Assembly (NCBI GenBank): GCA_938028665.1
Contig: CALIMB010000070.1
Location: 1 to 56,687 of the forward strand
From: an uncultured Thermomicrobium sp.
Lineage (GTDB): Bacteria; Chloroflexota; Chloroflexia; Thermomicrobiales; Thermomicrobiaceae
Direction: 5' to 3'
DNA length: 56,687 bases
The notes beneath the pieces were generated by a model, which was given only the letters and a program-made list of their open reading frames with translations, was not told the origin of the DNA and searched no databases. The position numbers and the translations under genes were made by a program. This document shows positions 27,647 through 44,646 of this stretch, in pieces; the stretch's first letter is position 1, and each line of letters opens with the position of its first letter.

Positions 27647-28774
27647 TCAGCTTCCAGGGGTAAGGAAGCGAGCTGGATCAAAAGGTTCAAGTGACAGCGC
27701 AGGCGCCTTCCCCTCCAAAAGATCAGCCAGGAGCTCGGCGGTTACAACACTGAGGAGGACACCATTGCGAGCATGACCGGTGGCGATCCACACATTTTGG
27801 TAGTGGGGCAGCCGGCCCAGGACCGGTAGCCCATCGGCCGACCAGGGGCGAAGGCCTGCGAGCGCGTCGAGAAAGATCGCGCGACCGAGCGCTGGTATCG
27901 TCTCTTGTGCGAAGGTGGTGAGCTGTCGCACGCCTTCGAGCGTTGGGCGCCGGTCGTAGACGGCGAGTTCCTCGGTTGAGCCGACGGCAACGGTACCATC
28001 AGCCTTGGCGGCAAGATAGAGATCGCCACGGTAGACGGTGTGACGGACACGGAGATCCCATCCCTGGAGGCGGATCAGCTGTCCGCGCAGGGGTCCGACT
28101 GGTAGTGGCACACCAAGCTGGGCAGTCAAGTGACCGCTCCAGGCTCCAGCAGCGATGATCACCTGATCGGTAGGAATACGACTGGTACGAGTCTGGACAC
28201 TAATCACACGCTCACCAGCACGTTCGAATCCGACCACTTCGACGCCCTCATCGATGTGCGCACCACCAAGTGAGGCTGCACGTGCGAAAGCCTCAACGAG
28301 GCGCGGGCTGAGCACCTGGTGTTCGTAGGGGAGGAGAAGTGCACCACGGAAGAGGGGAGAGACTGCTGGCTCAAGCTGGCGAAGCTCGTGGTGGTCGAGC
28401 CAACAGCACGCGGCATCGCGGGCACGCAAGAGGGGTAGCGCCGCGCGGAGTGCCTCTTCCTCGTCAAGGGTAAGGGCTAGCTGCAAGGCGCCGGTATGAC
28501 GAAATTCCACGTCGATCCCGGTACGCGCACGCAGGTCAGCGACCACAGCCGGGAAGCGGGCAAGACTTGCCGCACCTAACTCACTTAGCGGATCGTCCAG
28601 CGCCCCGCTGCCAGGTAAACCAAGCAGGCCGGCATAGGCGATACTCGCCTGGCCACCGACCGTCACGCGTTCGAGGACACGCACACCGTGCCAACCGCGT
28701 CGCATGAGTTCCGCAGCGATAGCGCACCCGATGATGCCGCCACCAACGATGGTTACCGTTGCAGAGCCGGACAT
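27647..28774 (-). CDS. FAD-dependent glycine/D-amino-acid oxidase family (ThiO-like)
   Basis: The 375-residue DAO-family flavoenzyme starts with the dinucleotide fold TVTIVGGGIIGCAIAAEL. It contains GPLRGQLIRLQG and LYLAAKADGTVAVGSTEE, and ends LRPWSADGLPVLGR and GHARNGVLLSVVTAELLADL, the pattern of glycine oxidase ThiO. ThiO makes dehydroglycine for the thiamine thiazole ring. Sarcosine oxidase or D-amino-acid dehydrogenase is possible because no thi gene is adjacent. ATG 28774 is preceded by AGGAGG. It converges with the MFS gene and diverges from the ABC transporter operon. Confidence 0.85.
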   Translation of the reverse strand: MSGSATVTIVGGGIIGCAIAAELMRRGWHGVRVLERVTVGGQASIAYAGLLGLPGSGALDDPLSELGAASLARFPAVVADLRARTGIDVEFRHTGALQLALTLDEEEALRAALPLLRARDAACCWLDHHELRQLEPAVSPLFRGALLLPYEHQVLSPRLVEAFARAASLGGAHIDEGVEVVGFERAGERVISVQTRTSRIPTDQVIIAAGAWSGHLTAQLGVPLPVGPLRGQLIRLQGWDLRVRHTVYRGDLYLAAKADGTVAVGSTEELAVYDRRPTLEGVRQLTTFAQETIPALGRAIFLDALAGLRPWSADGLPVLGRLPHYQNVWIATGHARNGVLLSVVTAELLADLLEGKAPALSLEPFDPARFLTPGS

Positions 28775-28929
28775 TGGCCCGACCTCCTCACGAGATTGTG
28801 AGGGAGGGAGCAGTGACGCGCAAGCGTTGCGGCCGACGCAAGCATATCGAAGAGTCTGTGTTGTCTGAACCCCGAAGAAGGGGCATGAAACTGCAGGACC
28901 CCGGGGAGGAAGTTCGCCAACGGAGGACC

Positions 28930-29159
28930 TATACTTGTTGACTTGGCCGTGCCACTGGAGGGCTGGCGCCGGTGAATCTCGCCAAGCGGAGGAGAACAGG
29001 ACAGCAAGGAGGCTGAGGAAATGGATGAAGGACCGAGTTTGAGCGGTTTAGGACGCTGGTTGGCCGGGAGATAAGCTGAACGCGCACACCGCTGTCCCAC
29101 GGTAGCTGCTTCCCGGCCAGCCAGGCACGGTGGTTGTAGGCCGGGAAGGAGGTGCTGCC
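28930..29159 (+). promoter_or_regulatory. Structured leader of the ABC operon with mutually exclusive hairpins
   Basis: A TATACT box (28930-28935) suggests transcription from about 28942, giving roughly 220 nt of leader. TCCCGGCCAGCC (29111-29122) can pair over 12 bp (one G-U) with 29058-29069. Alternatively CTTCCCGGCC (29109-29118) pairs over 10 bp with 29139-29148, which covers the front of AAGGAGG (29146-29152), the ribosome site of the permease gene. The two helices share bases and cannot coexist. A 7-bp long-range pair (28999-29005/29091-29097) and an ACCG/CGGT hairpin lie inside. This is the layout of a translational riboswitch. No known aptamer consensus was recognised. Confidence 0.6.
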
Positions 29160-30926
29160 GTGTGGATGGGACGGATGTGGCCGGTTGCGGCAGAGCGTCA
29201 GCTGGTACAACGAGTCCGATGGTTTTGGTGGGCTGATCTCCTTGTTCTGTTGCTCCTCGGGGTGGTAACCACTGGGCTTGCAGTCGTTGGAGCGCACTGG
29301 CTAGCACCCCGTCAGTCAGCGGTATCGATCAGTTTGTCACTGAGCTCGCTTCCGCTCTATACGCTCTACTCCTTTTCACGAATGCTCCTGGCTTATCTTC
29401 TCTCGCTCAGCTTTGCCATTGTGTATGGGAGACTTGCTGCCTCTGGACCAACATTGGAGCATATTCTCATACCGATCCTCGACGTTCTCCAGGGTATCCC
29501 CATCTTATCCTTTCTACCTGGCGTGGTACTTGCACTGGTTGCACTATTCCCCCACCGGAATCTGGGTGCAGAACTGGCGGCTATTGTCCTGATCTTCACA
29601 AGCCAGTCGTGGAACTTAGCTTTTAGTTTGTATCAATCGATGGTGACCATCCCGAACGAGTTGCGAGAAGCGGCAGAGATCCTACAGCTGAGCCGCTGGC
29701 AACGTTTCACGCGTTTAGAGTTGCCATTTGCGATGGTTCCACTGCTCTGGAATTCGATCATGAGTTGGGCAGGAGGTTGGTTCTTTCTGATGGCAGCAGA
29801 ACAGTTCACGTTGGGGGAAAGAACTTTTCTGTTGCCTGGGCTTGGTGCCTACCTCTCTGTTGCGGCGAATAAGGGAAATTTCTCCGCGCTAACCGCAGGG
29901 CTTATCACACTGGTGATTCTGATTATTGCACTCGATCACATGGTATGGCGACCACTGGTGGCGTGGGCGGATCGATTCAAGGTGGAAGAGGTAGCGGGGA
30001 CGCCGCGAGAGAGTAGAGTAGGGTTTGCTTGGTTGCGCCGGTCCTTTATCCTCCTTGGGCTGCACCACGCACTAGAGCGCAGTTTTGTCGAGCCAGTGGA
30101 TCGCTGGTTAGACCGGGCGTTTGGCTTCCCGCGGGTTGCATCGTTCCCTAAGCAAGAGCAGGTTCCTGCCCGAGGGCGATGGTTCTGGGTCGTGAGCATA
30201 CTAGCGAGTGCAGTAATCCTACTCGCTCTTATTGTCCAGAATGCCGCGGGGTTAGCCCTGGCGAGGATACCGATCAGCGCTTGGGAAAGGATAGTGAGAG
30301 CAGCAGGCCTCTCACTTCTGCGAGTCATGTTGACAGTGAGCTTTGGGGCCTTGTGGACGGTTCCTGTGGGGGCAGCGATCGGATTCAACAGGCGCCTGGC
30401 TGGAATGGTTCAGCCGTGGGTCCAGACGCTTGCTTCGATTCCTGCGACGGCCCTCTTTCCAGCGATCGTTCTTGTCCTGCTCCGCCTGCCTGGCGGTCTA
30501 CAGGTCGCTGGCATTCTGCTCATGGCCCTTGGCACACACTGGTACATCCTGTTCAACGTGATCGCAGGAGTTCGCGCAATTCCGAATGATCTCAGTGAAG
30601 TTGTGGCCATCACGCGACTGACCGGGTGGCAACGGTGGCGGCTACTTACGTTGCCAGCTGTGTTCCCTTACCTTGTCACTGGCCTGATAACGGCTGCTGG
30701 TGGAGCCTGGAATGCAACGATCGTGGCTGAATACGTCACGTTTCGTGGTCAGGTGTACGACGCTGGTGGACTAGGCGCCTTGATTGCCCGCAGTGCTGAG
30801 ACGGGCGATTATCGCACCCTGATTGCTGCAACGATGGTGATGGCGACGATTGTCGTCGGTTTGAACCGCGCATTGTGGCGTCGGCTCTACCGTTTTGCTA
30901 CAGAGCGGTACCGACTTGAGAAATGA
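29160..30926 (+). CDS. ABC transporter permease, two permease domains fused (NitT/TauT type)
   Basis: A 588-residue inner-membrane protein with two BPD-type permease domains in one chain. Each has an EAA loop for ATPase contact: [21 protein letters not shown] near 180 and [21 protein letters not shown] near 490. About 12 membrane spans are predicted. GTG 29160 is chosen because AAGGAGG lies 7 nt upstream; upstream in-frame GTGs would precede that site. The fusion removes the need for a permease dimer. No substrate-binding protein gene is adjacent, and the substrate is unknown. The ATPase gene follows after 13 nt. Confidence 0.9.
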
Positions 30927-30939
30927 AAGGAAGACCGGA

Positions 30940-32313
30940 ATGCTCGGAACGTCGGTTCTTCGCACTCCAAATAAGGGAGCAGTTCTCTTGGAAGCGCGCG
31001 GGATAACCAAGTTGTACGATGCGAATGGGGATCACGTTGTGGTGCTTGACAACGTCAGTCTAGAGCTTTGTGACGGAGAGGTTGTGGCGCTACTCGGCCC
31101 TTCAGGGTCAGGAAAATCGACGCTGCTCCGAATAATTGCTGGGCTGGTTGCTCCATCAAGGGGAGAAGTTCGTGTACACGGTGAAGTACTCCGTGGGGTG
31201 AACCCCTTGGTAGGGATGGTATTCCAATCCTTCGCACTCTTCCCATGGCTGACAGTCTTGGAGAATGTGGAGCTTGGTTTGTTGCGGAAAGACTTGCCCA
31301 AGAATGAACGGCGAGCACGAGCGCTGACAGCCCTCGAGATGGTTGGTCTGGGTGGTTTTGAGCATGCTTATCCTCGCGAGCTTTCGGGAGGGATGAAGCA
31401 GCGAGTCGGCTTTGCCCGCGCACTGGTTGCTGAACCCGAGCTTTTGCTGCTTGATGAACCGTTTTCCTCACTTGACGTGCTGACTGCTGAAAATCTTCGC
31501 CGTGATCTCCTTGATTTGTGGCTCACTGGGAGGATTCCAACCAGAGCGATAGTTCTTGTCACCCATAACATCGATGAGGCTGTGTACCTGGCCGATCGAC
31601 TCATAATATTTAGCGCCAATCCAGGTCGCATTCGCGCGGAGCTTCCGGGGCTGCCGCTTGCGCAGCGCTTGCAGAAAAGTCAAGCGACCCATGATATGGT
31701 AGACTTGTTGTATCGTCTGCTGACGGATCCTCAGGAGGATGTGCAACGGCTGATTCCACAGGCACGAGTTGTACAGGCTCCTGCGCATCCATCGTATCAA
31801 GTACTGCCGTGTGTTGGTGTGGGAGAGTTGACCGGCTTTGTGGAGCGGATCGCGCAGGGGGGCGGGTACGAGGATGTGTTTGAGCTGGCGAGAGAGCTGC
31901 AGCTGACTGCCGACCAGTTACTTCCATTGATTGAGGCGACACGATTACTGGGCTTGTGTGCAATTGTGGAAGGAGATGTTCTGCTCACCGATACTGGCAA
32001 AGCGTTCGTTAAGGCCGATGTCCGCAAACGGAAGGAGCACTTTCGGAAACTGGTATGGGAACACGTCGACCTTATTCGTGAAATTGTCCACCTGCTTCAA
32101 GATACCCCTGACTTGCGCCAAACCGAGGACGAGCTTTTGAAGCGACTAGAAGTCCATTATCGTTCTGCAGAAGCTCGTCGCCAGCTTGCAACGGCTATTG
32201 AGTGGGGTCGGTATGCGGAACTGTTTGCGTATGACGAACAAGAAAGATTACTGTACCTGGATCAAGAGCATGACGTAAGTAATCTTGAAGACTCTCAGCA
32301 ATTCAATGCGTAG
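30940..32313 (+). CDS. ABC transporter ATPase with AAA-associated C-terminal domain
   Basis: A 457-residue protein. Residues 10-245 are a nitrate/sulfonate/taurine-type ATPase: Walker [17 protein letters not shown]-loop [15 protein letters not shown], signature [17 protein letters not shown], Walker [13 protein letters not shown] and switch His in [13 protein letters not shown]. The C-terminal 170 residues form the helical/winged domain called AAA_assoc_C ([31 protein letters not shown]), found on a subgroup of binding-protein-less transporters. ATG 30940 follows AAGGAAG. Coding sequence is AT-richer toward its 3' end. It powers the fused permease upstream. Confidence 0.9.
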
Positions 32314-43000: not shown

Positions 43001-43990
43001 CTACATCCGGAAAGGTCGTCCACGTTCGTGCACTCCAGCACTGGGAACCGTTCCGACGAGCCGAGCGATCGCACGCAACCAGCTGGAGCGCTGACCTGGT
43101 GTCAATTCACCACGGAAACGGTAGTCGGCGGCTGCAATGAACGCTGCGAGATCGTCGAGAAGTTCGGCGAGCGCGACGCGGCAGTGGAGGAAATCCTCCG
43201 CGCCGGCATGGCCCAAGCAGGGCTCAAGGGCTATCCCTTCTGCAGATGGTTCGCGCTGGTGCAAAAACCATGCCCAGGTGCGGTCGCGCTGCGGCAGGGT
43301 AGCCAGACAATGGGGGCAGCATTCCGGGAGCGCGGCTGGCTGGGGAAGGTGCCAGGGACGACGGCCAACATCGTGAGCGAGCTGCTCCAGGTGCGACCAG
43401 CGTGGTCGCAGGTGCGCAACCCGGGTCTCCCACACGTCCCAGGGAAAGGCGGAAGTAAGACGGACCAGAGCCGCTGCGTGCGGCCGGCAGAGGACACCAG
43501 GTTGTTCGAGGAGAAGCCGCGGGTCGTGAGAGGCAAGCTCAGCTGTGGCCCAGAGGAGTGACTCCTCGGCGGTTGCCAGCCACTCGCAGATGGGGCAGGG
43601 ATCCTCTGGCACGAGCCAGCGTTCGAGTGAGTGCGGAGTCTGACCATGCCGGTAGGCGTCACGCAGGATACGCTCCAGCAGGATAGCGACCCCAAGGTGA
43701 CTATGCACCGCTGCACCAGCGGGAACGAGTGCCCACGTATGCTCCCAACAGAAACCGCGCGCAGCGGCGAGACGATCAGCCGTCATTGGATCATTAACCT
43801 GCTCCCAGAGGAGAGACTCTAGGCTGCGTCGTTCTTTCTGGGAGAGGAGACGGCAGAGCGGACAGCCCGGCTCGGCAAACGCCTCCTGAACGGTTGCCGC
43901 AAGATAGCGGTCGAGCGAGGTGCGTTGACCACGCGCCAGGAGTTCACGGAAACGGTCAACAAACGTTCGGTTCTCGGGACCTTGGCGCAT
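43001..43990 (-). CDS. Cys/His-repeat protein (DUF6062-like), first gene of the MoxR operon
   Basis: The 329-residue protein contains three copies of a CPxC ... C-x2-H pattern. These are CPLC with FCWEH (about 40-85), CPICEW with LCRPH (about 130-170) and CCPHC with CLGHA (about 225-260). Each copy could build a four-ligand zinc or Fe-S site. It resembles the family I know as DUF6062, with no defined function. ATG 43990 is preceded by GGAGGTGC; the frame to 44263 has no such support. It opens a five-gene operon (Cys/His, HEAT, MoxR, DUF58, DUF4129) and lies directly after an intrinsic terminator, suggesting attenuation control. Confidence 0.78.
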   Translation of the reverse strand: MRQGPENRTFVDRFRELLARGQRTSLDRYLAATVQEAFAEPGCPLCRLLSQKERRSLESLLWEQVNDPMTADRLAAARGFCWEHTWALVPAGAAVHSHLGVAILLERILRDAYRHGQTPHSLERWLVPEDPCPICEWLATAEESLLWATAELASHDPRLLLEQPGVLCRPHAAALVRLTSAFPWDVWETRVAHLRPRWSHLEQLAHDVGRRPWHLPQPAALPECCPHCLATLPQRDRTWAWFLHQREPSAEGIALEPCLGHAGAEDFLHCRVALAELLDDLAAFIAAADYRFRGELTPGQRSSWLRAIARLVGTVPSAGVHERGRPFRM

Positions 43991-44007: not shown

Positions 44008-44046
44008 AAAAACCTCTGTCGACCAGAAGACCTGGTCTGACAGAGG
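44008..44046 (-). terminator. Intrinsic terminator/attenuator in the leader of the MoxR operon
   Basis: On the minus strand, CCTCTGTC ... GACAGAGG with inner GACCAG/CTGGTC forms a 14-bp stem (44013-44046, one bulged base). TTTTT (44008-44012) follows immediately. It ends about 18 nt before ATG 43990 of the first gene. No minus-strand gene lies upstream within the next 3 kb, so it most likely acts as a conditional terminator within the operon's own leader. Confidence 0.8.
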
Positions 44047-44646
44047 CTATCAGCCACGATCCGGCGGTTTGGCAGCTTGACGCCGCCTGGCGAGCCTCAT
44101 CGCCGTACCTCTTCAAGGGTACTATGAAATGTGGTTGGAGAACAACTGCGAGGACAGAGCCAGACACGCATCGCCTGTTCCTGATGAAGACGCCGCGACG
44201 CCAAAGCATTGTGAGAACAGCGTGGTCCCGGCTAGGCACATGACGAGACTGCTCCGTTCGCAAAGCCCGGTTCCCGGATAACGAGTGTGGTTTCTTGGTT
44301 GCTTACCATCCTCGGTGCCCGGTGTTCAAGTGCTGGAGTACTCCTTCCCCGTTCGGCTGGTCTGCTGTGCGCCACACACGGTGACACAAGCGAGCAGAAC
44401 AGCACTCTCATTTCCGCCACAGTTGTTGGGGCACGCCAAGAGAGACTTAGGGCGGGAGCCGTTTCTTTTGCGGGAGAGGCGTGAGGACAAAGAGAAGACG
44501 TGCAATACTCGCACCCATGGTGAGCTCTCTGGGGAGCTCCGACGACCTGCGCTGCCACGATTGCTCAGCGACATGATCGAAGCCTTCGCCAGGGAGGGCT
44601 GTGACACGGTGTGTGGAGACTCAGGGATAGGGGAGGGAAATCGGTG
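44047..44646. other. Divergent intergenic region between the MoxR operon and the fad genes
   Basis: About 600 bp without a recognised gene. It should contain the promoter and leader of the attenuated minus-strand operon and the promoter of the plus-strand dehydrogenase gene. A GAGCTC/GAGCTC hairpin lies near 44523-44540. No T-box or known riboswitch consensus was seen. Confidence 0.4.

Follow-up and report, generated by a model that had tools for sequence, protein, structure and literature searches.

The leader of an ABC transporter operon in an uncultured Thermomicrobium sp. is, on balance, best read as a translation-acting leader-peptide attenuator of the MgtL/mgtQ-like type, with Mg2+ the most likely signal sensed and a transporter that probably carries Mg2+. 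The window is the whole 56,687-nt stretch of contig CALIMB010000070.1 that was analysed. As expected of such an attenuator, the leader holds a short open reading frame (uORF) with its own Shine-Dalgarno (SD) sequence, kept in orthologues, and mutually exclusive helices, with one arm within the ORF and the permease gene's ribosome site closed in one state. The features are:

28930-28935, + strand: putative (weak) -10 hexamer TATACT of the operon promoter
29006-29012, + strand: SD sequence AAGGAGG of the leader ORF, 8 nt 5' of its ATG
29021-29074, + strand: leader peptide ORF, 17 codons (MDEGPSLSGLGRWLAGR) plus TAA
29058-29069, + strand: arm A, anti-sequester, within the 3' codons of the leader ORF, with equivalents in G003 and G009
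29098-29106, + strand: arm D, partner of the start-codon region 29154-29162, with compensatory changes in G003 and G009
29109-29122, + strand: arm B, shared strand, pairing with A (open) or C (closed)
29139-29148, + strand: arm C, SD side of the sequestering helix, pairing perfectly over 10 bp with 29109-29118
29146-29152, + strand: SD sequence AAGGAGG of the permease gene
29154-29162, + strand: arm E, strand with the GTG start codon, pairing with D
29160-30926, + strand: fused two-domain ABC permease, candidate Mg2+ transporter (Pfam PF00528 in two stretches, 2x BPD_transp_1)
30940-32313, + strand: ABC ATPase with a C-terminal AAA_assoc_C domain, same operon (Pfam PF00005 and PF09821)

The preliminary description had proposed that the transporter's ribosome site is under a translational on/off switch, and that logic was supported, including by covariation. 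Both arms of its two competing helices are present in the sequence: 29058-29069 (GGTTGGCCGGGA) pairs with 29111-29122 (TCCCGGCCAGCC) over 12 bp with one G-U, and 29109-29118 (CTTCCCGGCC) pairs perfectly with 29139-29148 (GGCCGGGAAG) over 10 bp. The second helix covers the 5' part of the permease AAGGAGG, upstream of the GTG at 29160, as had been said, and the sequestering arm extends further, from 29098-29106 (CACGGTAGC) to 29154-29162 (GCTGCCGTG), with the start codon buried. Arm A resembles the SD-side strand at 29139-29148. Against shuffled partner regions, p was 0.004 for the uORF-end:mid helix (A:B) and 0.007 for the SD/start helix. Whole-leader folding was unremarkable compared with shuffles (z = -1.66); because the whole leader folds little better than shuffles, the interest lies in these specific helices. 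The further 7-bp upstream pair of the preliminary description was present in the minimum-energy fold of the window leader only.

Both helices are kept in relatives, in that the orthologous leaders can fold into them as well (G003 and G009, respectively: p = 0.014 and p < 0.001 for the uORF-end helix, p = 0.004 and p = 0.013 for the SD/start helix, against shuffles). The covariation anticipated for both was found for the SD/start helix, which had two-sided compensatory changes and zero broken pairs across three species; the uORF-end helix of G003 is less secure, because it was not significant with a shortened arm (p = 0.69). The start-codon helix is formed by CACGGUAGC/GCUGCCGUG in the window, CACGCGGUAC/GUACCGCGUG in G003 and CACGCGGCAC/GUGCCGCGUG in G009, the helix being kept in both orthologous Thermomicrobia leaders and the exact bases not. 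For this covariation, three Thermomicrobia leaders are all that exist.

The leader ORF had been overlooked, and its frame differs from that of the permease. Its last codons are arm A, at an equivalent position in the G003 and G009 leaders, so translation of the peptide would set the switch. Of 158 genomes of the class, two, G003 and G009, had a clear orthologue (permeases 57-59% identical); the adjacency of permease and ATPase genes is retained in orthologues. The orthologous leader ORFs have GGAGG at a similar SD spacing and encode MREGPSPQRPVLRSGGTVNR (MREGPSPQRP…) and MHDDGPSPRRQPFLPVGLVS (MHDDGPSPRR…), each ending at a stop codon. The N-terminus of the peptide is conserved across the three Thermomicrobia leaders. 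Early codons are acidic or proline (MDEGP, MREGP, MHDDGP), with fewer such residues than in MgtL; the destabilising residues of the window peptide are D2, E3 and P5 only, and the G003 peptide has R at position 2.

A simple GPSP motif search in orthologues returned the peptide in Thermomicrobium only, and a looser codon-level search recovered further leader peptides that the motif had missed. SD-led uORFs of the GP/DP type occurred in 14 of 98 orthologue leaders (1.15 +/- 1.4 in shuffles). Across the leader ORFs compared, variation in codons 2, 4 and 5 (D/E, G, P) was mostly at the third position, and the constraint on the first codons is therefore largely on the encoded peptide. Codons 5-8 mostly end in U (AGT, GGT, CAT, CGT, TAT) despite a varying amino acid (L132-L143, L182-L199 and others), and do so though many of these genomes are GC-rich; slow wobble decoding is one idea.

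Upstream of the uORF, -10-like hexamers occur at 91, 83 and 71 nt in the window, G003 and G009, respectively (TATACT, TATACT and TACACT). A sigma-70 consensus scan returned no promoter. There was no sign of a transcript start downstream of 29110, although the -10-like hexamer is the only support for the promoter. No intrinsic terminator was found in the leader as a regulatory device. The intergenic region is common to the transporter leader and a divergent gene for a DAO-family FAD oxidoreductase (27647-28774, - strand), a position that corA occupies in G009.

The same type of peptide follows M-box (ykoK, RF00380) riboswitches, which in relatives control MgtE and NRAMP-related genes and the ABC operon. 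In a set of 28 Clostridiales M-boxes that were not selected by the peptide, 27 were followed by an SD-led ORF starting [MV]-[DE] (1.0 +/- 1.0 in shuffles), with starts such as MEAGPH, MEADPS, MESGPY, MENGPYGGR, MDGAPR, MDSGPE, MDDxDT and MDGDAS; the natural controls for this set gave 3 of 76 orthologue leaders lacking an M-box and 6 of 156 unrelated stretches 5' of the M-boxes. An M[DE] uORF occurred in 33 of 43 M-box leaders of a mixed set (1.9 in shuffles), three members of which had been found via the peptide. All M-box uORF counts are inflated by related genomes. An M[DE]xGP[S/x]… peptide also follows most Chloroflexia M-boxes, and the genes behind M[DE]xGP-type peptides are of the MgtE type, NRAMP and ABC. 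In Ktedonobacteria, MDAGPSSS and MD[DE]GPGS peptides lie 5' of the ABC operon with the M-box present or absent. A pattern search of 400 Chloroflexota genomes placed MDAGPSHSR/MDAGPSSS 5' of PRC/MgtE_N proteins in numerous genomes from a single family, and together with an M-box 5' of Nramp genes. P-type ATPase targets (L213, L215) were recognised by eye, with no profile.

Towards the C-terminus the leader peptides differ in both length and sequence, which favours a cis-acting leader peptide over a small protein. In 11 testable clostridial leaders, the 3' part of the uORF paired with the anti-SD strand beyond shuffles (combined p = 5e-7; related rows), and some clostridial ORFs carry at their 3' end a mimic of the SD strand (GAGGAATATT in L250) that competes with it for one partner. 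In the clostridial M-box leaders L235, L236, L239, L242, L246-L249 and L255, the uORF stop is adjacent to the main gene's ribosome site or overlaps it, which suggests direct translational coupling, not competing helices, in this subset. Tandem leader ORFs (MD[DE]GPGS and [MV][ND]A[DG]PEQRC) lie 5' of the ABC operon in the Ktedonobacteria leaders L042, L052 and L096, at about -620 and about -300 from the permease. An extra small conserved ORF stands between leader peptide and permease in the Chloroflexia leaders L142/L200 and L135 (MLIMRWTLDNKGRLTATFTRPQTLRPL in L142, MLTIRWTMNKDGRLTATFVRPQTLRPL in L135).

Relatives of the permease gene are themselves under the genetic control of a Mg2+ sensor. 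The M-box lies directly 5' of the orthologous ABC operon at 6 Clostridia and 4 Ktedonobacteria loci and directly 5' of a paralogous ABC operon at 8 Chloroflexia loci, and these 18 loci are three separate clades of the permease tree. The window clade and the Ktedonobacteria clade fall within one 31-row group (SH-aLRT 95; quick tree). Neither an M-box nor an M[DE] uORF accompanied 81 of the 111 permease tree rows, so the cargo could differ between clades. Within Thermomicrobia, a search of the G000, G003 and G009 genomes and of the window leader for M-boxes gave none, and the mgtE leaders of G001, G006 and G009 held no convincing M-box or M[DE] uORF. corA is directly upstream of the ABC operon in G009 and mgtE precedes the operon in G126; G000 and G003 had no CorA matches and one MgtE each.

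Signal and cargo are most likely magnesium, because near-identical peptides follow M-box riboswitches in two phyla. The suggestion in the preliminary description that the ligand could reveal the substrate thus looks right, as the related leaders and the M-box linkage point to Mg2+. The fused-permease/AAA_assoc_C ABC transporter is probably a Mg2+ transporter and a candidate importer. By Pfam, permease and ATPase are ABC proteins, outside the CorA, MgtE, MgtA/B and NrmT classes, and the transporter would form a new class of Mg2+ transporter. NrmT was recognised as a class of Mg2+ transporter via M-box control (PMC4072509), and the substrate assignment made here follows the same inference; the text of that paper makes no mention of an ABC transporter.

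A purely thermodynamic switch was rejected: in the equilibrium moving-ribosome model the start codon was buried at every ribosome position along the uORF and never opened. Since the equilibrium fold is always closed, the switch would have to be kinetic and co-transcriptional. In folds of the elongating transcript, about 15, 30 and 28 A:B pairs formed in the three species before the start codon was made, with the uORF end free or with the ribosome at codon 4; with a ribosome covering the uORF stop, A:B fell to 0-3 pairs in the three species. A finished peptide would therefore lead to closure, and an early stall or drop-off to an open site.

In the proposed mechanism, a ribosome would initiate on the 17-codon leader ORF. 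With ample Mg2+, it would translate the acidic/proline N-terminus (MDEGP) and continue to the stop codon, and would cover arm A during the transcription of arm B; B would then pair with the SD strand, D:E would bury the GTG start, and the operon would be OFF. At low Mg2+, the ribosome would be destabilised and would stall on or fall off the first codons, leaving arm A free to capture B ahead of SD synthesis; the open ribosome site would turn the operon ON. In related bacteria, the peptide module downstream of the M-box may act as a second checkpoint; in Thermomicrobia, where the M-box is absent, it would act alone.

This polarity would be that of MgtL (PMC11552253), in which poor elongation at low Mg2+ turns mgtA on (PMC11282234, PMC11552253), and comes near the scheme of alternative stems in mgtQ-mgtB (PMC8092293). 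Salmonella mgtQ-mgtB likewise has a short ORF with a strong SD and controlled translation, an acidic start (Asp2, Glu5 and Pro4 among the early residues) as in the window peptide, and alternative stems that either mask or expose the ribosome site in front of a Mg2+ transporter gene (PMC8092293). Unlike the window leader, mgtQ belongs to another phylum, has 8 codons, lies between two genes, overlaps the first strand of the stems rather than the strand capturing the anti-SD, and controls a P-type ATPase rather than an ABC transporter (PMC8092293). MgtL, encoded ahead of a Mg2+ transporter gene, also starts with acidic and proline residues (EPDP motif), but acts through Rho-dependent transcription termination, whereas the ribosome site is the target in the window (PMC11282234, PMC11552253). 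The window peptide is thus likened to mgtQ and MgtL in how it works; homology is claimed with neither, and the likeness is the acidic/Pro start. Among open-access reports, the mycobacterial uORF2/Rv1805A, a conserved small ORF between an M-box and its target genes, was the only earlier case of an M-box-linked leader peptide (PMC12810186). Rv1805A has a conserved N-terminus with an invariant proline; it is reported as mycobacteria-specific and, unlike the window peptide, has that proline at position 7 (PMC12810186).

An attenuator of the same build could answer to a signal other than Mg2+, with a transporter that imports something else, stalling being caused by Mn2+, a polyamine, the state of EF-P/EttA, or the charging of proline or serine tRNA. 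MgtL-type ORFs do respond to proline tRNA and EttA too (PMC8092293, PMC11282234), positions 5-8 hold a cluster of U-ending Ser/Gly/His codons with the amino acid varying, and nitrate/taurine-type models match both ATPase and permease at scores below cut-off; yet the peptide is associated with M-box riboswitches and Mg2+-type transport genes in two phyla, and such a signal is considered unlikely. The preliminary description read the leader as riboswitch-like. In a true riboswitch with its own aptamer, the RNA at 28943-29110 would bind a metabolite or metal and the short ORF would be incidental. The leader is structured, and competing helices over a ribosome site are a typical expression platform. 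Rfam, searched with the gathering score and again with E = 5 as cut-off, confirmed that no known aptamer is recognisable: no riboswitch family matched in 28780-29260, and even E = 5 gave implausible chance matches only. The upstream part is also poorly conserved among the three leaders whereas the peptide N-terminus is kept, and the unremarkable whole-leader folding points the same way. The leader is probably not a free-standing riboswitch, and a true metabolite or metal riboswitch is judged improbable.

Simple translational coupling or tuning without a signal would agree with an equilibrium fold that is always closed, the acidic N-terminus then being kept for other reasons, e.g. initiation efficiency; codon 2 is GAC nearly always, which could reflect the initiation context. 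The uORF stop is about 85 nt from the permease start codon, a long distance for ordinary coupling; D-x-G-P identity is kept despite varying third positions, and the link to Mg2+ transport genes is specific. Coupling without a signal is judged improbable.

Beyond the proposed Mg2+-responsive attenuator in the window, it is an even call whether acidic M[DE]xGP leader peptides constitute a widespread, undescribed family that provides a second nascent-peptide Mg2+ checkpoint behind M-boxes (in Bacillota and Chloroflexota, and alone in the window), with the fused-permease/AAA_assoc_C ABC transporter as a new class of Mg2+ importer. If so, the use of an unstable nascent peptide to sense Mg2+, known from enteric bacteria, would extend much further and would routinely accompany the M-box, giving two Mg2+ checkpoints per transcript, and the orphan ABC transporters of a large NitT/TauT-like family would gain a substrate.

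Elsewhere in the window, a fluoride riboswitch (RF01734, 37.8 bits) occurs at 44034-44113 (- strand), about 44 nt 5' of a gene encoding a DUF6062 protein (43001-43990, with an inferred start). HEAT-repeat and MoxR-type AAA genes come next; such a target is unusual for a fluoride riboswitch.
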